Below are positions 34,367-46,490 of a stretch of DNA of 64,000 nucleotides, one piece after another. Within the stretch, counting starts at the first letter, position 1, and every line of letters starts with the position of its first letter. Origin of the DNA: an uncultured Eubacteriales bacterium. Lineage in GTDB: Bacteria; Bacillota; Clostridia; Lachnospirales; Lachnospiraceae. The notes under the pieces were generated by a model. That model was given only the letters and a program-made list of their open reading frames with translations. It searched no databases and had not been told where the DNA came from. The stretch lies in the NCBI GenBank assembly GCA_900314525.1, contig OMVN01000002.1:1-64000 (forward strand). The letters run 5' to 3'. The position numbers and the translations under genes were made by a program.

Positions 34367-35893
34367 ATGAAGATAAAAAAGTTTATTATTACGTTTTTTA
34401 CGGGAATTATGATGGGGATTTTTATAACTGTTACGACATCCAACTGGATTAGAAATAATAATTCTGGTGAAATATTTAAGCACCTAAAAAAATCTATTTT
34501 AGATGATAAAAATATAACTAAAAATAACAAGAAAAAGAAAGTAGAAAATACCAGACAGAATACAAAAGAAAATAATGAAAATAACATCGATAATGGAGAT
34601 ATGAAGACAATAAGGGTATTATTAAAGACTACAGGATATAAAGACATATTACATGACAAGGCAAGCTTTAGCTGTGGGTGTGATATGGACGTAATATATT
34701 ATAAAAAAGATGAAAATGGAAATCTCTTGGAACAGAGTTTAAAATGGGGGAAAGAAGGTGAGGTAGTAGTTAATCCTGATAATGAACTGTTAAATGACGG
34801 AATAATGAAAATTACACCAGAAGACAGAAATTATAAAATATCGATTAACTCTATTGAACGAAATGGATGCACACCAGTATATAGGGGAAATATTATTTTA
34901 TCAAGAAATCATGGGAAAATAACAATTGTAAATGAACTTCCTATTGAAGAATATTTATATAGTGTTGTTCCAAGTGAAATGCCTGTGAGTTTTGGAAATG
35001 AAGCATTAAAAGTTCAGGCAGTATGTGCAAGAAGTTATGCTGTAAGTCATCTTGGAGGTGGAGAATTATCCATGTACGATGCAGATGTAGATGATAGTAC
35101 TGATTACCAGGTCTATAATAATTCGGGAGAGAAAGAAGAGGCAATTCAGGCTGTGTCCGAGACAAAGGGACAGATAATGAAGCATGGAGATGAAATTGTA
35201 AATGCTTATTTTTTTGCCACGTCATGTGGATACACAACAGATGAAAGAATCTGGGGGAATAAGACAAAAGAATACATAAAAAGCAAATCTGTTACAGAGA
35301 AGGAAGAAAATATAAATCTTACAGATGAAGAAACATTTAAAAAGTTCATAAAAAGTAATTTTGATAGCTTTGATAAGGGAAATCCATGGTACAGATGGAA
35401 GATTTCATATACGGAAAAAGAATTAGCCGGGGTAATTAATGATAATATTAACAGACTGGTCACCCTTGGAGGAGATAAGATACTTACATATAACGGAAGT
35501 GAATTTGTACCAGGTAAACCTTCCCCTGTAAATAAAATCAGAGATATATTTATTACAAGTAGAAGTGAAGGGGGAGTTGCTAACGAACTAGTTATAGATG
35601 CTGAAAATGAAAAAATAAAAATCTTAAGCCAGACTTTTATAAGAAATATATTCAATCCATATGGAATTAAGATTGATAAATGTGATGGAAGCTTTAATGA
35701 TAAGATGAATTGCCTTCCTAGTGGTTTTTTTGTTATTGAAAAAAATGACGACAGATTTACACTGTACGGAGGAGGATTTGGACATGGAGTTGGAATGAGC
35801 CAGACTGCGGTAAAAAATATGGCAAATAATGGAATGACATACGAGGATATACTCAAATTTTTCTATAAGGATATAGACGTGGTTAAATATTAA
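34367..35893 (+). CDS. SpoIID/LytB-domain protein, membrane anchored
   Basis: A 508-residue protein with an N-terminal signal anchor (FIITFFTGIMMGIFITVTT, about 5-23) and an asparagine/lysine-rich linker. The SpoIID/LytB domain follows (about 180-508): EEYLYSVVPSEMPVSFGNEA, LKVQAVCARSYAVSHLGG, and the C-terminal GGGFGHGVGMSQTAVKNMA. SpoIID proteins are lytic transglycosylases acting on peptidoglycan stripped of stem peptides, classically in engulfment. No other sporulation gene is adjacent, so it may be a vegetative wall-remodelling homologue. Confidence 0.9.
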   Translation: MKIKKFIITFFTGIMMGIFITVTTSNWIRNNNSGEIFKHLKKSILDDKNITKNNKKKKVENTRQNTKENNENNIDNGDMKTIRVLLKTTGYKDILHDKASFSCGCDMDVIYYKKDENGNLLEQSLKWGKEGEVVVNPDNELLNDGIMKITPEDRNYKISINSIERNGCTPVYRGNIILSRNHGKITIVNELPIEEYLYSVVPSEMPVSFGNEALKVQAVCARSYAVSHLGGGELSMYDADVDDSTDYQVYNNSGEKEEAIQAVSETKGQIMKHGDEIVNAYFFATSCGYTTDERIWGNKTKEYIKSKSVTEKEENINLTDEETFKKFIKSNFDSFDKGNPWYRWKISYTEKELAGVINDNINRLVTLGGDKILTYNGSEFVPGKPSPVNKIRDIFITSRSEGGVANELVIDAENEKIKILSQTFIRNIFNPYGIKIDKCDGSFNDKMNCLPSGFFVIEKNDDRFTLYGGGFGHGVGMSQTAVKNMANNGMTYEDILKFFYKDIDVVKY

Positions 35894-35922
35894 TAATAAT
35901 ATGTTTTTATCGTTAATTTTAA

Positions 35923-35951
35923 TTGACAATTATGGATATTATAATTATAAT
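35923..35951 (+). promoter_or_regulatory. Consensus promoter of the polyamine operon
   Basis: TTGACA (35923-35928), 17 bases, TATAAT (35946-35951), a perfect match. Predicted transcription start about 35958. Confidence 0.85.
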
Positions 35952-35957
35952 CAAAGA

Positions 35958-36127
35958 CAGTGTGAAGAAGAGTTTAGCGGGATTAAATTGCGTACACACT
36001 TGTGAGATTATGTAATATTATGTGAGAGTAGTAAAAGTAATTTCTTGCTATATAGACTCTGAACGCGATCGGTTTTAATTGCAGATTAATCAAGTGTATT
36101 ATTTTTATAATATACTTGATTTTTTTT
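35958..36127 (+). promoter_or_regulatory. Structured leader RNA with intrinsic terminator ahead of speD
   Basis: About 170 bases of leader begin with a small hairpin (AGTGTG 35959-35964 / CACACT 35995-36000) containing an AGTTTA / TAAATT stem. ATTGCGT (35987-35993) inside it can pair with ACGCGAT (36063-36069), which would form a pseudoknot. The leader ends in the terminator described separately, so the operon is probably controlled by attenuation. It matches no riboswitch consensus I know (T-box, SAM-I, ykkC types). A polyamine, SAM or arginine sensor is a guess from gene context. Confidence 0.55.
36088..36127 (+). terminator. Attenuator-type terminator before speD
   Basis: A 15-bp stem with one wobble (AATCAAGTGTATTAT / ATAATATACTTGATT), TTTT loop, T8. 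It stands between a consensus promoter and the operon, with no complete gene upstream in the same transcript. Confidence 0.92.
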
Positions 36128-36180
36128 ATGAATATTACAGAGAATGTTAATGATAAATAATTTTCAATATGGAGAATGAA

Positions 36181-36972
36181 ATGAACAAAAAATTAAAGCT
36201 ATATGGATTTAATAACCTGACAAAATCATTGAGTTTTAATATCTATGATGTTTGTTATGCAAAGACTGAGAGGGAGCAGAAAGATTATATTTCTTATGTA
36301 GACGAACAGTATAATTCTGAAAGATTGGTTAATATATTGTGTCATATTGCAGAAATGATAGGTGCCCACGTACTTAGTGTTTCTAAACAGGATTATGAAC
36401 CTCAGGGTGCAAGTGTCACAATTCTTATGGCCGAAGAGCAGATGATTAAAGCTATGAGTGGTGAGCCTAGTTCTGAGGTAGTAGCAGGGGATGAAGTGGT
36501 TGCACACTTAGATAAGAGTCATATTACGGTTCATACTTATCCGGAGTTTCATCCAGATACAAGTATTGCTACATTCAGGGTTGATATTGACGTGGCAACA
36601 TGTGGAGAAATAACACCACTGCTTGCACTTGAATACCTTATTGGTAGTTTTGATTCAGATATAATTACAATGGATTATAAAGTAAGAGGATTCACAAGGG
36701 ATGTTGATGGAAAGAAACTTTTTATTGATCATGATATAAAATCTATTCAGGATTATATTTCTGATGAGACGTTACAGAGATACGATGCAGTCGATATAAA
36801 TGTATATCAGTCAAATATTTTCCACACGAAAATGCTGATAAAAGAACTGGATTTGCAGAATTATCTTTTTAACACTGATGTTTATGAACTTCAGCCAAAA
36901 GAAAGATTGGAAATCACAAACAGTCTCAGACAGGAAATGATAGAGATATTCAGTGGAAATAATATTTATTAA
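36181..36972 (+). CDS. speD: S-adenosylmethionine decarboxylase proenzyme
   Basis: SpeD makes decarboxylated SAM, the aminopropyl donor for spermidine. The 263-residue protein is of the E. coli-type class. The self-cleavage site is visible in [15 protein letters not shown]; Ser113 would become the pyruvoyl group after cleavage at Lys112-Ser113. ATG 36181 has GGAG six to seven bases upstream; ATG 36169 overlaps that site. It is the first gene of a six-gene polyamine operon and lies behind an attenuator-type leader. Confidence 0.95.
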
Positions 36973-36988: not shown

Positions 36989-38437
36989 ATGAATTTTAAT
37001 CAGAATAGAATGCCAGTATATGAGGCATTAGAACAGATGAAAAATGAGAGAATAGTTCCTTTTGATGTTCCGGGACACAAACATGGAAAAGGAAACAAGG
37101 CATTGACTGATTTTTTGGGTGAAAAATGTATGACAGTTGATGTCAATTCAATGAAAATGCTTGATAATTTATGTCATCCTGTTTCAGTAATTAAAGAGGC
37201 ACAGGAACTGGCAGCAGAAGCGTTTCATGCAGAAAATGCATTTTTTATGGTGGGCGGAACAACCTCTTCAGTTCAGACTATGGTACTTACAACCTGCAAA
37301 AAGGGTGATAAGATAATAATGCCAAGAAATGTACACAGGAGTGCAATAAATGCATTAGTCTTATCTGGGGCAGTACCTGTTTATGTAAATCCAGATTCGG
37401 ACAAGAGACTTGGAATTTCACTTGGAATGAAAGTATCAGATCTTTTGAAGACAATAGAGGAAAATCCTGACGCAAAGGCTGTAATGGTTAATAATCCTAC
37501 TTATTATGGTATTTGCTCGGATATAAAGAAAATAGTTTCAATAGCACATGAGCATGGAATGATGGTATTAGCAGATGAAGCACATGGTACACATTTTTAT
37601 TTCAATGATAAATTGCCGATATCAGCTATGGAGGCAGGCGCGGATTTTGCTTCAGTTAGTATGCATAAATCAGGAGGAAGTTTAACTCAAAGTTCAATTC
37701 TCCTAACTGGAAAAAACGTCAATCCAGATTATGTGAGACAGGTCATTAATCTTACGCAGACAACAAGTGGTAGTTATCTTTTACTGTCAAGCCTTGATAT
37801 TTCTAGAAGAAATCTGGCACTTAATGGACAGGAAATATTTGACAGGGTAATTGACCTGGCGGAATATGCCAGAAAAGAGATAAATGAGATTGGCGATTAT
37901 TATGCATATAGCAAAGAAATAATAAATGGTGATTCAGTGTTTGACTTTGATGTCACAAAATTATCAATAAATACTTATGATGTAGGACTTGCAGGTATTG
38001 AAGTATATGATAAACTGAGAGATGAATATGAGATACAGATTGAATTTGGGGATCTTGATAACGTGCTTGCATATATCTCTGTAGGTGATCGTGAGAGGGA
38101 TATTGAGAGACTGGCAAGTGCACTGGCGGAGATAAAGAGAAGATTTAAGAAGGAAAAGAATAATCTGTTAGATCACGAGTATGTAAATCCTGTTGTTGAA
38201 ATGACACCTAGAGATGCTTTCTTCGGAGAAAAAAAGAAAGTTTTGTTGGAGGAATCAGAGGGGATGATTTGTGGAGAGTTCGTTATGTGTTATCCTCCTG
38301 GAATCCCAATTCTTGCACCAGGTGAGAAAATTACAGATGAGATTATTAATTACATAAAATATGCCAAGGAAAAGGGCTGTTTTATTACTGGACCACAGGA
38401 TCTGATGGTTGAAAATATAAATGTTGTAGTCGAATAG
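36989..38437 (+). CDS. speA: PLP-dependent arginine decarboxylase (Orn/Lys/Arg decarboxylase family)
   Basis: The 482-residue aspartate-aminotransferase-fold decarboxylase resembles the Bacillus SpeA/YaaO branch without the receiver-like wing. It has the N-terminal PFDVPGHKHGKGN, the cofactor region VMVNNPTYYG and LADEAHGTHFYF, and the PLP lysine in ASVSMHKSGGSLTQSS (about residue 227). It ends with EFVMCYPPGIPILAPGE. Arginine as substrate is inferred from the agmatinase gene three genes on; lysine or ornithine remain possible by sequence alone. It lies 16 bases after speD. Confidence 0.88.
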   Translation: MNFNQNRMPVYEALEQMKNERIVPFDVPGHKHGKGNKALTDFLGEKCMTVDVNSMKMLDNLCHPVSVIKEAQELAAEAFHAENAFFMVGGTTSSVQTMVLTTCKKGDKIIMPRNVHRSAINALVLSGAVPVYVNPDSDKRLGISLGMKVSDLLKTIEENPDAKAVMVNNPTYYGICSDIKKIVSIAHEHGMMVLADEAHGTHFYFNDKLPISAMEAGADFASVSMHKSGGSLTQSSILLTGKNVNPDYVRQVINLTQTTSGSYLLLSSLDISRRNLALNGQEIFDRVIDLAEYARKEINEIGDYYAYSKEIINGDSVFDFDVTKLSINTYDVGLAGIEVYDKLRDEYEIQIEFGDLDNVLAYISVGDRERDIERLASALAEIKRRFKKEKNNLLDHEYVNPVVEMTPRDAFFGEKKKVLLEESEGMICGEFVMCYPPGIPILAPGEKITDEIINYIKYAKEKGCFITGPQDLMVENINVVVE

Positions 38438-38445
38438 GAGAAAAA

Positions 38446-39297
38446 ATGGAATTATGGTTTACTGAAAATCACACAAAAAATGTGAGATTTTCTATTAAAG
38501 TGGATAAGCAACTGTGCAGTATGCAGAGTGATTTTCAGAGGATTGACGTATTTACTTCAGAAGAATTTGGAAGATTTTTAACTCTTGATGGTTATATGAT
38601 GCTCACAGAAAAAGATGAATTTATTTATCATGAAATGATGGTTCATGTTCCAATGTCCGTTCATCCTAATGTAAAAAATGTGTTAGTTATAGGTGCTGGA
38701 GATGGAGGCGTTGTAAGGGAACTTACAAAGTATGACGAAATTGAGAGAATTGACATGGTTGAAATAGATAAAATGGTAGTGGATGTCTGCAGGGAATATT
38801 TGCCATTTACAGCATGTAAACTAGACGATAAGAGGGTAAACATATTTTATCAAGATGGTCTTAAATTCGTCAGAAATAAAGAAAATGAGTATGACCTGAT
38901 TATTGTGGATTCTACAGATCCTTTTGGTCCAGGAGAAGGTCTTTTTACAAAAGAATTTTATGGAAACTGTTATAAGGCACTTACAGAAGACGGTATAATT
39001 GTAAATCAGCATGAGAGTCCATTTTACAAGGATGATGCAATTGCTATGCAGAGAGCACATAAAAGGATTGTGCAGAGCTTCAATCTTTGCAGATTATATC
39101 AGGCTCATATACCTACCTATCCTTCAGGACACTGGCTATTTGGATTTTCCTCAAAGAAATATCATCCTGTAAAGGATTTTGATCCAGAGAGATGGAATAA
39201 CAGAAATATAAAGACAAGATACTATAACACAAATTTACATAGGGGTGCATTTGCACTACCAAATTATGTGGAGGAATTACTAGAAAATGTGGAATAA
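38446..39297 (+). CDS. speE: Spermidine synthase
   Basis: The 283-residue aminopropyltransferase transfers the aminopropyl group from decarboxylated SAM to putrescine. It has YHEMMVHVPMSVHPN, the nucleotide loop VLVIGAGDGGVVRELTKY, and the catalytic-Asp segment YDLIIVDSTDPFGPGEGLF. The STDP motif favours putrescine-type acceptors. It begins eight bases after the decarboxylase gene and overlaps speB by 11 bases. SpeD being in the same operon supports spermidine synthesis by this route. Confidence 0.95.
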   Translation: MELWFTENHTKNVRFSIKVDKQLCSMQSDFQRIDVFTSEEFGRFLTLDGYMMLTEKDEFIYHEMMVHVPMSVHPNVKNVLVIGAGDGGVVRELTKYDEIERIDMVEIDKMVVDVCREYLPFTACKLDDKRVNIFYQDGLKFVRNKENEYDLIIVDSTDPFGPGEGLFTKEFYGNCYKALTEDGIIVNQHESPFYKDDAIAMQRAHKRIVQSFNLCRLYQAHIPTYPSGHWLFGFSSKKYHPVKDFDPERWNNRNIKTRYYNTNLHRGAFALPNYVEELLENVE

Positions 39298-40135
39298 AAA
39301 CATAGAAACCTTTATCGGATGTGAATCAGACTTTGAAAATGCAAAGATAGTAATGTTCGGAGCTCCATTTGATTCGACAACATCATACAGACCAGGAACA
39401 AGATTTGGAAGTAGGGCAATTAGAAGTGAATCATACGGACTTGAGGTATATAGCCCATATCAGGACAAAGAAATAACAGATATTGATATATTTGATGGTG
39501 GAGATATTGAACTTCCGTTTGGAGATGCAAATCTTGCTCTTGATATGATTGCTGAGAAAGAAAAGATTATCCTTGATGCAGGAAAAATCCCATGTATGAT
39601 AGGGGGAGAACACCTTGTGACATTAGGTGCATTCAGGGAAGTATATAAAAAATATAAGGACATAAGAGTAGTACATTTTGATGCTCACACTGATTTAAGG
39701 GATGAGTATCTGTCAGTGAAATTATCCCATGCCAGTGTTATAAGGAGGATATGGGAAATAACAGGTGATGACAGAATTTATCAGTTTGGAATAAGAAGTG
39801 GTGAAAAAGAAGAGTTTATGTGGGCTAAGGAGCATACAAATCTCCATAAATTTAATTTTGAAGGATTAGAGGATGTAATTAGTGAAATAGGGGATAAACC
39901 AGTATATTTTACTATTGACCTTGATGTTTTAGATCCGTCAATATTTCCAGGAACAGGTACACCTGAGGCTGGTGGAGTCAGTTTCTTGGAATTATTAAAT
40001 GCCATAATTAAAGTATCTAAGTTAAATATTGTAGCTATGGATGTAAATGAATTGGCACCAAACCTTGACCAGTCAGGAGCATCAACAGCAGTAGCATGTA
40101 AAATAGTGAGAGAATTATTAATATCGTTATCATAA
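39287..40135 (+). CDS. speB: Agmatinase / ureohydrolase
   Basis: A 282-residue Mn-dependent ureohydrolase. Metal ligands are in IGGEHLVTLGA, VVHFDAHTDLRDEY and FTIDLDVLDPSIFPGTGTPE. Agmatinase converts agmatine to putrescine and urea, linking arginine decarboxylase to spermidine synthase. In the alternative carboxyaminopropylagmatine pathway, a ureohydrolase of this family acts on aminopropylagmatine instead; sequence reading cannot separate the two. The ATG lies inside the end of speE, so translation is coupled. Confidence 0.9.
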   Translation: MWNKNIETFIGCESDFENAKIVMFGAPFDSTTSYRPGTRFGSRAIRSESYGLEVYSPYQDKEITDIDIFDGGDIELPFGDANLALDMIAEKEKIILDAGKIPCMIGGEHLVTLGAFREVYKKYKDIRVVHFDAHTDLRDEYLSVKLSHASVIRRIWEITGDDRIYQFGIRSGEKEEFMWAKEHTNLHKFNFEGLEDVISEIGDKPVYFTIDLDVLDPSIFPGTGTPEAGGVSFLELLNAIIKVSKLNIVAMDVNELAPNLDQSGASTAVACKIVRELLISLS

Positions 40136-40150
40136 AAGGAGGAATATGTT

Positions 40151-41353
40151 ATGGGAAAAGCGCTTATTATCGGATGTGGAGGAGTTGCAAGTGTTGCAAT
40201 TCATAAATGCTGTCAGAATAGTGATGAATTTACAGAAATAATGATAGCAAGCAGAACAAAGAGCAAATGTGATAAATTAAAGGAAGAACTAGAAAATAAA
40301 ACAAAGACAGTTATTAAGACAGCACAGGTAGATGCCAATAACGTGGATGAACTTGTTGAACTTATAAATGATTTCAAACCAGATGTTGTACTTAATCTTG
40401 CACTTCCATATCAGGATTTAACAATAATGGATGCTTGTCTTATCACAAAGACAAGCTATGTTGATACAGCTAATTATGAGCCAGAGGATACAGCAAAATT
40501 TGAATACAAATGGCAGTGGGCATACAGAGAAAAGTTCAGGGAAGCAGGAATTACTGCACTTCTTGGAAGCGGATTTGACCCAGGCGTAACAGGTGTATTC
40601 TCCGCATATGCTATGAAGCATGAATTTGATGAAATAAACTATATTGATATATTAGACTGTAATGGCGGAGACCATGGTTATCCTTTTGCCACAAACTTTA
40701 ATCCTGAGATTAATATCAGAGAGGTTTCTGCAAACGGAAGTTACTGGGAAGATGGAAAATGGGTTGAGACAAAACCTATGGAAATAAAGAGAGAATATGA
40801 TTTTGACGGAGTTGGAATGAAAGATATGTATCTTCTTCACCACGAAGAGTTAGAATCTCTTGGAATCAATATTAAGGGAATAAAAAGAATCAGATTCTTT
40901 ATGACATTTGGCCAAAGCTATTTAACACATTTAAAATGCCTTGAAAACGTTGGAATGACATCTATTGAGCCAATTATGTATGAGGGAAAAGAAATAGTTC
41001 CTCTTCAGTTTTTGAAGGCAGTTCTTCCAGACCCTGCATCACTTGGCCCTAGAACAGTTGGAAAGACTAACATTGGATGTATTTTTAGAGGTAAAAAAGA
41101 CGGAAAAGAAAAGAATCTTTATATTTACAATATGTGTGATCATCAGGAATGTTATAAGGAAGTTGGCTCGCAGGCAGTTAGCTACACAACTGGAGTTCCT
41201 GCAATGATAGGAGCAATGCTTATTATGAATGGTACATGGAAAGGACCTGGTGTATTTAATATTGAGGAGTTCGATCCTGATCCATTTATGGATGCATTAA
41301 ATAAATGGGGTCTTCCATGGGTAATTGACAGAGATCCTAAATTAGTAGATTAG
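40151..41353 (+). CDS. Carboxy(nor)spermidine dehydrogenase, saccharopine dehydrogenase family
   Basis: The 400-residue protein begins with the NADPH-binding GKALIIGCGGVASVAIHKC and has the family features DANNVDELVELINDFKPDVV, LGSGFDPGVTGVFSAYAMK and the C-terminal WVIDRDP. Paired with the next gene, it would reductively condense L-aspartate-beta-semialdehyde with putrescine to carboxyspermidine, or with agmatine to carboxyaminopropylagmatine. AAGGAGG lies before ATG 40151, 15 bases after speB. Lysine-pathway saccharopine dehydrogenase is unlikely given context. Confidence 0.88.
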   Translation: MGKALIIGCGGVASVAIHKCCQNSDEFTEIMIASRTKSKCDKLKEELENKTKTVIKTAQVDANNVDELVELINDFKPDVVLNLALPYQDLTIMDACLITKTSYVDTANYEPEDTAKFEYKWQWAYREKFREAGITALLGSGFDPGVTGVFSAYAMKHEFDEINYIDILDCNGGDHGYPFATNFNPEINIREVSANGSYWEDGKWVETKPMEIKREYDFDGVGMKDMYLLHHEELESLGINIKGIKRIRFFMTFGQSYLTHLKCLENVGMTSIEPIMYEGKEIVPLQFLKAVLPDPASLGPRTVGKTNIGCIFRGKKDGKEKNLYIYNMCDHQECYKEVGSQAVSYTTGVPAMIGAMLIMNGTWKGPGVFNIEEFDPDPFMDALNKWGLPWVIDRDPKLVD

Positions 41354-41363
41354 GAAAGTGAAT

Positions 41364-42500
41364 ATGATTTATAACTATGATAATGTTCCTACTCCATGCT
41401 TTGTCGTGGAGGAGGAACTTTTAATTGATAATTTAAAAATTTTAAAAAAGGTAATTGATGACACTGGTTGCAAAATCCTTCTGGCACAGAAATGTTTTTC
41501 AATGTTTTCAGCCTACCCACTTATATCAAAGTATATAAGTGGAACCACGGCAAGTGGATTATACGAAGCAAAACTTGGAAGAGAATATTTTGACGGAGAA
41601 GTCCATGTTTACTCAGGTGCATATAAAGACGAAGATATAGATGAAATATTAAAGATTTCAGACCACATTGTGTTTAACTCTTTTAGTCAGTGGGACAGAT
41701 ATAAGGAAAAAGCAATCAAGTCAGGCAAAAAGTGTGGAATCAGGATAAATCCAGAGTGCTCTACGCAGGAAGGACATGCAATATATGATCCATGTTCTCC
41801 GTTTTCAAGAATGGGCGTTACTAGAGAGATGTTTAAAATAGATGATCTAGAGGGAATATCTGGCCTTCATTTTCATACATTATGTGAACAAAATTCAGAT
41901 GATCTGGAGAAAACACTTGATGCAGTTGAAGAGAAATTTGGTGATGTTCTAAGTCGGATGGAATGGATAAACTTCGGTGGAGGTCATCACATAACAAGAA
42001 AAGATTATGATATTCTTAAACTTGAGAACTGTATAAATAGAATGCAGAAAAAATATGGATTGAAGGTTTATATTGAGCCTGGAGAAGCGGTTGCGTTAAA
42101 TGCAGGATTTCTTGTATCAGAAGTTTTAGATATTGTTCATAATGGAATGGATTTAGCGATTCTTGACACATCGGCAGCATGTCATATGCCAGATGTCTTA
42201 GAAATGCCATACACACCTGTAATTACGAGTGCATACTATGGTGACGACAAAGAGAAGTATAATAAATACAGACTAGGTGGACCTACGTGCCTTGCAGGAG
42301 ATGTCATAGGCGATTATTATTTTAAGGAACCATTAAAAATTGGAGACAGGCTTGTCTTTACAGATATGGCGATATACTCTATGGTTAAGACAAATACATT
42401 TAACGGGATGAAACTTCCATCCATTGCATACAAGGACCAAAGTGGTATAAAAATAATAAAAGAATTTGGCTACGATGATTTTAAGAACAGATTGTCATAA
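41364..42500 (+). CDS. nspC: Carboxynorspermidine/carboxyspermidine decarboxylase
   Basis: A 378-residue alanine-racemase-fold PLP decarboxylase. VPTPCFVVEEELLIDNLKIL opens the barrel and LLAQKCFSMFS carries the PLP lysine (about residue 40). GLHFHTLCEQ, INFGGGHHITRKDY, IEPGEAV and GPTCLAGDVIGDYYF complete the NspC signature. It decarboxylates carboxyspermidine to spermidine. ATG 41364 is preferred (AGGAAAG upstream); an in-frame GTG at 41358 is possible. It is the last polyamine gene of the operon. Confidence 0.93.
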   Translation: MIYNYDNVPTPCFVVEEELLIDNLKILKKVIDDTGCKILLAQKCFSMFSAYPLISKYISGTTASGLYEAKLGREYFDGEVHVYSGAYKDEDIDEILKISDHIVFNSFSQWDRYKEKAIKSGKKCGIRINPECSTQEGHAIYDPCSPFSRMGVTREMFKIDDLEGISGLHFHTLCEQNSDDLEKTLDAVEEKFGDVLSRMEWINFGGGHHITRKDYDILKLENCINRMQKKYGLKVYIEPGEAVALNAGFLVSEVLDIVHNGMDLAILDTSAACHMPDVLEMPYTPVITSAYYGDDKEKYNKYRLGGPTCLAGDVIGDYYFKEPLKIGDRLVFTDMAIYSMVKTNTFNGMKLPSIAYKDQSGIKIIKEFGYDDFKNRLS

Positions 42501-46237: not shown

Positions 46238-46249
46238 CTAAAAAGATAT

Positions 46250-46490
46250 GGCAATGAAGGTGCAAAGTAAGCAGAATCAGATGATTTATAGAGAATGATT
46301 ACCATCGGCTGGAAGTAATCGAAAATCATGCCTGCAGAAATTTCACACCTTGGCTTCGTTCCTAAAATGATTGTCAGAGTAGGGAATGACGTGGATGAGC
46401 GTTAATCATTATAAGAGTCTGTTTATACAGAAATTTGGGTGGTACCGCGGATTATTCGTCCCAATCAGCATAGCTGATTGGGATTTTTTT
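46250..46490 (+). promoter_or_regulatory. T-box riboswitch, Phe specific
   Basis: A classical T-box leader. Stem I opens with GAAGGTG near 46256 and closes with CACACCTT near 46348. The specifier reads TTC followed by A on the 3' side of stem I, a Phe codon matching the downstream pheST genes. The T-box sequence GGGTGGTACCGCGG is at 46437-46450. The terminator CCCAATCAGC-ATA-GCTGATTGGG (46460-46482) with T7 ends it. Uncharged tRNA-Phe should favour the antiterminator and allow pheST expression. Confidence 0.95.

Follow-up and report, generated by a model that had tools for sequence, protein, structure and literature searches.

The leader RNA of the polyamine operon in this DNA is probably a cis-acting transcription attenuator, a pared-down representative of an RNA family that is widespread in the Bacillota and would act as a polyamine-responsive OFF switch, most likely a spermidine riboswitch. 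It lies directly 5′ of the speD operon in the window, by which we mean the whole stretch of 64,000 nucleotides that was analysed. The initial annotation proposed an unrecognised attenuating leader with regulated readthrough at this place, and attenuation is likely, given that the terminator 5′ arm has its complement in a conserved strand farther upstream, and that the RNA tracks polyamine genes. Sequence comparison shows the family, most of its structure, the order of promoter, leader and terminator, the complementarity between the switch strand and the terminator, and the association with polyamine genes.

The features of the window are collected in Table 1. The promoter, annotated as perfect, agrees with the consensus at every position, and TTGACA and TATAAT spaced by 16 to 18 bases are found upstream of the leader in all six same-genus elements (window counted). 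The structured leader of about 170 bases is borne out, as 35958-36130 has a folding energy of -41.9 kcal/mol (z = -3.12, terminator hairpin included) and only 1 of 200 shuffles is equally stable. The 15-bp terminator before speD is also present as claimed, with 15 pairs (one G-U), a TTTT loop, an energy of -15.1 kcal/mol and nothing other than T at 36120-36127. It is not listed by a consensus terminator scan of the region, presumably because the scan wants three G-C pairs and the stem has two. The pseudoknot that had been suggested between 35987-35993 and 36063-36069 did not hold up: the strands are complementary (one G-U), yet at least one such 7-bp match occurs in 171 of 200 shuffles of the leader, and the proposed pairing overlaps the long-range helix P1. 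A second in-frame ATG for speD is found at 36169. Searches with Rfam gave no match within the window leader at gathering level, and up to E = 10 gave two chance matches only, both to eukaryotic snoRNA families. Elsewhere in the window, Rfam places a 6S RNA gene (RF00013, 34092-34269, + strand) upstream of a SpoIID-like gene, a tRNA gene (RF00005, 44727-44799, - strand), and a T-box leader (RF00230, 113.7 bits, 46245-46466, + strand) that is separate from the polyamine leader.

Table 1. Features of the polyamine leader and operon, in window coordinates.
Feature	Position	Strand	Basis or detail
Sigma-70-type promoter TTGACA-17-TATAAT	35923-35951	+	12/12 consensus bases
Probable outer stem P0, 5′ strand (GUGU)	35960-35963	+	MFE fold; pairs with 36063-36066
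Long-range helix P1, 5′ strand	35976-35991	+	AGCGGGA 35976-35982, bulge, AAUUGC 35986-35991; pairs within 36037-36049; MFE fold
Switch strand ACACUUG	35996-36002	+	7-bp match to terminator 5′ arm 36091-36097
Conserved core, domain C	36025-36060	+	Unique in window; R1 match
Domain C, GAGU	36026-36029	+	Predicted GAGU:ACUC pseudoknot
Domain C, AGUAAAAGUAA	36030-36040	+	
Domain C, P1 3′ strand	within 36037-36049	+	
Domain C, UAUAUAGA	36049-36056	+	
Domain C, ACUC	36056-36059	+	Predicted GAGU:ACUC pseudoknot
P0, 3′ strand (ACGC)	36063-36066	+	MFE fold
Intrinsic terminator	36088-36127	+	Stem 36088-36102/36107-36121, T tract 36120-36127; in the antiterminator, 5′ arm 36091-36097 would pair with the switch strand
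Ribosome-binding site GGAG and likely speD start ATG	36171-36183	+	GGAG 36171-36174, ATG 36181-36183; sequence
speD, adenosylmethionine decarboxylase	36181-36972	+	TIGR03331, above cut-off
Orn/Lys/Arg decarboxylase family, exact substrate not resolved	36989-38437	+	Best NCBIfam matches below cut-off
speE, spermidine synthase / polyamine aminopropyltransferase	38446-39297	+	NF002010, TIGR00417, above cut-off
speB, agmatinase	39287-40135	+	TIGR01230, above cut-off
Carboxynorspermidine synthase-like dehydrogenase	40151-41353	+	NF043000, 418.8 bits, below cut-off of 800
nspC, carboxynorspermidine decarboxylase	41358-42500	+	TIGR01047, above cut-off

Judged by sequence matching, the core of the window (36025-36060) recurs across the Bacillota. 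A search with SpeD gave matches in 21 of 61 genomes (own counted), one of them very weak, and a shared core was seen upstream of speD in seven of these; the window carries it as GAGUAGUAAAAGUAA ... UUGCUAUAUAGACUC at 36026-36059. The pattern AGTAAAAGTAAN{2,14}TGCTATATAGA is found in 24 of 397 genomes of the family-level sample, belonging to 23 genera, against 0 matches in the same 397 genomes for a reversed-pattern control. When one position of the core is relaxed there are at least 118 stretches in named genomes, and the taxa among the matches listed include Lachnospiraceae, Oscillospiraceae, Acetobacterium, Peptococcaceae, Neobacillus, Robertmurraya, Lederbergia and Kurthia, with others; by record titles, MAGs from animal guts and Bacillaceae-type genera are also among the carriers. 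The 142 distinct elements gathered, among which near-duplicates remain, comprise 22 from the family-genome pattern, 112 from the relaxed-pattern matches listed, 7 from the SpeD search (3 of them also matched by the pattern) and 1 from RF02440. One locus among them (L030) holds two near-identical attenuator copies in tandem ahead of speD, with cores at 1501 and 1891, 390 bases apart, and a contig titled Bacteroidales (L118) has an element ahead of a decarboxylase gene, by mis-binning or transfer.

A covariance model of domains B and C (R1) was built from 32 sequences, none from the genus of the window. It finds 17 of 299 genomes in a phylum sample and 40 of 291 in a class sample (own counted in both), with one match each. 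The initial annotation had advised a covariance model of related leaders, and R1 recovers the window at 36008-36061 with 43.9 bits (E 2.9e-6), the sole match in its genome.

Across the phylum, in the genomes compared, the family tracks genes of polyamine synthesis and import. Such genes lie 3′ of 134 of the 135 gathered elements with readable downstream DNA. The first recognised downstream gene encodes SpeD in 75 of the 142 elements, PotA in 26, an Orn/Lys/Arg decarboxylase in 25 and a carboxynorspermidine synthase-like protein in 8; seven elements run off their contig, and one (L146), the sole non-polyamine context, is followed by an IS200/IS605 transposase gene (NF033573) and then a sulfonate-type ABC-transporter gene. 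The PotA class consists of a reference (L049) above the NF043075 and TIGR01187 cut-offs and 25 further proteins assigned by BLASTP to that reference. Matches to R1, which were taken without regard to genes and overlap with the gathered set, lie upstream of polyamine genes in 53 of 53 cases outside the window's own genome; these are 16 of 16 in the phylum set and 37 further ones in the class set, a count that omits two matches already in the phylum set. In one of the loci (L174), the gene 3′ of the R1 match is a decarboxylase frame.

In the fuller relatives, a covarying long-range helix and an outer stem are accompanied by a multibranch domain, a predicted pseudoknot and a switch strand whose complement lies in the terminator 5′ arm. 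In the long-range helix P1, a strand that immediately precedes domain A, typically GCAAAUAUUU, pairs with the core C loop (AAAUAUUUGC), for example as GCAGAUAAUU/AAUUAUUUGC in Bacillaceae-type contigs and as GCAGGAAUUU/AAAUUCUUGC in locus L033. In an anchored test, where the 5′ strand was picked by its place beside domain A regardless of pairing, 67 of the 142 elements were usable and the mean P1 duplex was -6.40 kcal/mol, against -4.41 kcal/mol with swapped partners (0 of 1000 as low); with 51 unique pairs the values were -6.27 and -4.54 kcal/mol (0 of 5000), the duplex, covariation and switch statistics reported here all correcting only partly for common descent. The strands outside P1, forming P0, gave -13.86 against -10.35 kcal/mol (0 of 5000) in a test that placed 96 of 142 elements, 78 after removal of near-duplicates, although the own partner outscored every other in only 6 of 78 rows. 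This support for P0 comes from the relatives, the window itself lying outside that test. An ungapped scan for P1 over the elements (own 15.9, swapped 13.6) was noisy and was dropped in favour of the anchored duplex tests, as it was misled by chance sites, the window included.

Alignment A2 (60 pairs) comprises 33 of the 47 sequences to which deduplication reduced the 70 past a P1 score threshold; it has 94.1% of cells paired, compared with 91.1% when shuffled, and 18 pairs changed on both sides, compared with 10.1. Its covariation score is 0.142, against 0.095 for shuffled and at most 0.042 for slid versions; its P1 counts lean towards P1 because rows were selected by P1 score. A further alignment, A3, contains 32 of 48 deduplicated sequences, from 107. 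P2 and GAGU:ACUC hardly vary across the 33 sequences of A2 and so give little evidence either way, and RNAalifold on domains B and C finds 2 of 32 pairs changed on both sides, a low figure because these domains hardly vary. The R1 helices alone have 6 pairs changed on both sides, a number that 21 of 500 shuffles, and some of the slid versions, also reach; most of the covariation support therefore comes from P0, P1, P6, domain A and the small hairpin.

Among the 136 elements whose downstream sequence was long enough, 126 carry a terminator, and the other 10 have none by the rule used. The longest run complementary to the CUUGUG strand averages 5.99 in the terminator 5′ arms, against 4.94 in shuffled arms (sd 0.09), and 0 of 200 shuffled rounds were as high, the highest being 5.21. 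Where the switch has GUA in place of GUG, T tends to replace C in the arm (9 of 11 versus 13 of 40, Fisher p = 0.005, descent not corrected), with 40 of the 116 arms having no matching site and 25 having neither C nor T; this count of terminator arms replaced a looser switch-base count. The CUUGUG strand is the 3′ side of P4, and because it belongs to both P4 and the predicted antiterminator, the two should be mutually exclusive. In the window, the switch strand ACACUUG matches CAAGUGU in the terminator, a feature that it shares with the family. The antiterminator duplex of the window is not unusual when taken alone, as 104 of 1000 shuffles are as strong, and for the RNA up to 36103, before the terminator 3′ arm, the best fold has -26.8 kcal/mol and the best antiterminator fold -23.7 kcal/mol.

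From these elements the following mechanism can be proposed. In the full form, P0 and P1 would close the fold around the RF02440 hairpin domain (A), a small hairpin, domain B (P2-P6) and core C, in which GAGU is predicted to pair with ACUC across P1. An abundance of polyamine, most likely spermidine, would stabilise the fold and keep the CUUGUG switch strand in P4, letting the terminator form and transcription stop ahead of the operon. Under polyamine shortage, that strand would pair with the terminator 5′ arm and transcription would continue.

The gene contexts favour a polyamine as the signal, one of the candidates, along with SAM and arginine, that the initial annotation had considered plausible, polyamine genes adjoining family members across the phylum. 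The operons lead to spermidine via SpeD/SpeE or via a carboxynorspermidine-type route, or to import of polyamines. All would raise polyamine levels, by synthesis or import, and feedback repression by polyamine is therefore the simplest logic. The position of the elements ahead of SpeD/SpeE genes, of the carboxynorspermidine-type route and of PotA import genes points to a common end product. Spermidine is favoured because both synthesis routes probably end in it, while putrescine, cadaverine or norspermidine may be alternative ligands. Direct binding of the ligand, its identity and the OFF polarity are what we infer from the data. Some variants depart from the common core. Eight elements ahead of potA (L218, L221, L224, L226, L228-L230 and L232) have the core loop swapped for GAGUACGCGUA or similar; these potA-linked elements keep the pairing ends and are possibly a subclass. 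Three elements ahead of a decarboxylase gene (L051, L052 and L216) have an altered core (GAGCAGGGACAAUAUAUUUG in L051) and keep domain B, and a different ligand is conceivable for them.

The window copy has neither domain A nor P2-P6 (domain B, UUAUUGA:UCAAUAA and the inner helices), and R1 aligns to it only at the ends and the core, almost the entire score coming from core C. Its P1 is part of the MFE fold with a bulge, as a duplex of -11.1 kcal/mol that 19 of 1000 mononucleotide shuffles equal in strength; the ungapped scan, which cannot accommodate the bulge that this helix needs, did not find P1 in the window. The bases of GAGU and ACUC are both present, and in the nested MFE fold ACUC is paired with 35969-35974, not with GAGU. 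The best reading is that of a reduced yet still constrained element, and we infer that the shortened copy is still functional. There is a real, if small, chance that the copy is instead decaying while its genus loses control by the polyamine leader: R1 scores in the genus fall from 85.5 bits (L006) through 52.8 (L004), 52.4 (L005), 50.9 (L003) and 43.9 (window) to 43.1 (L002), and speD occurs with no R1 match at the leader in three members (L007, L013 and L022). However, neither the window nor its nearest relative (L002) has lost the core, the promoter, the terminator or the switch complementarity, and minimal forms resembling that of the window are found in another family (L183 and L185). One member of the genus (L007) lacks the attenuator and has a 6S RNA match immediately 5′ of speD.

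As to how the family would work, the covarying architecture bears on whether RNA or protein is the sensor. A polyamine-sensitive RNA-binding protein that binds the conserved leader and governs termination would suit the strong conservation outside helices, including AGUAAAAGUAA and UAUAUAGA, but a large, covarying, long-range architecture kept in many families is the usual look of a ligand-binding RNA, and both samples have one match per matched genome; we regard such protein-mediated attenuation as improbable. A polyamine-sensing RNA is also preferred over an arrangement in which promoter and terminator delimit an independent small RNA, as Rfam files RF02440, and speD has its own promoter. 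The Rfam type and a weak promoter-like match at 36134-36161 (9/12) speak for that arrangement, although such a match means little where 46 promoter-like matches occur in 7 kb (34.6 expected, sd 5.4). We hold the arrangement to be quite improbable: all 53 R1 matches immediately precede polyamine genes, and an sRNA would have no need of a switch strand that can pair with its terminator. Attenuation by ribosome stalling on a leader peptide is scarcely credible, for although the leader sits ahead of a terminator and an ATG frame of at least 6 codons is present in 128 of 142 leaders, these frames begin at scattered positions and the variation tracks base pairing.

Of the full-length RNA, Rfam contains no more than a short segment, namely RF02440 (SpF59_sRNA or “ldcC RNA”; 54 positions, Rfam type Gene; sRNA). 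The name “ldcC RNA” reportedly traces to a 2017 candidate-motif paper. RF02440, which is named in Streptococcus, is found directly 5′ of domain B, where it equals domain A, in 4 of the 13 loci, 12 of the 14 named contigs and 3 of the 21 family-level genomes that were scanned. In the phylum sample it occurs in 10 of 299 genomes, all of them among the 17 with R1 and at adjacent coordinates, so that in these genomes RF02440 is the 5′ part of a larger RNA. Its model covers only the 54-nt 5′ domain, and leaves out P0, P1, domain B, core C and the terminator. At its cut-off of 37.2 bits it has no match in the window or anywhere in the window's genome, and a search of a full-length member (L039) up to E = 10 gives only RF02440 and two chance matches. 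The earlier statement that no known class fits thus stands for the window leader, which has no Rfam class, and needs amending for its relatives, which carry RF02440 in the same leader. Likewise, the RNA is unrecognised in that Rfam is blind to the leader in the window's genome, but it is not completely novel, as fuller relatives hold RF02440. A literature search covering open-licence PMC papers returned no ligand for RF02440 and, as weak evidence given that coverage, no account of the family as a polyamine riboswitch. No clear match to a known riboswitch thus emerged, RF02440 being filed as an sRNA and those papers giving no ligand for it.

We see an even chance that the family is a natural spermidine (polyamine) riboswitch class, distinct from SAM-I, which runs two synthesis pathways and import across the Bacillota, with RF02440 as a 5′ accessory domain only and the sensor in the core of P1 and the GAGU-ACUC pseudoknot, as the window form would show. 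RF02440, now framed as an isolated 54-nt sRNA, would then become the opening segment of a cis-regulatory RNA, and the minimal form in the window would offer a small test object for locating the sensor.

Among known systems, the T-box leader (RF00230) of Firmicutes has a terminator controlled by alternative pairing. Control of this kind is also proposed for the polyamine leader, which has no match to RF00230 at 35890-36300. No SAM riboswitch of Rfam matches the window leader (up to E = 10) or the full-length member L039. The spermidine riboswitch that is a variant of SAM-I (Salvail et al. 2023, PMC10853860) is, as far as the available text describes it, an OFF switch acting via transcription termination that precedes polyamine genes including speD, speE, speB and ldcC, with 13 examples reported, compared with the 142 elements gathered here by sequence and the 53 found by the model alone (overlapping sets). 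As the SAM-I architecture is not matched, it was ruled out as the identity of the leader. The Bacillota family would resemble that riboswitch in its proposed OFF control by termination ahead of polyamine genes and, unlike the SAM-I aptamer described in the same text (PMC10853860), has another architecture.
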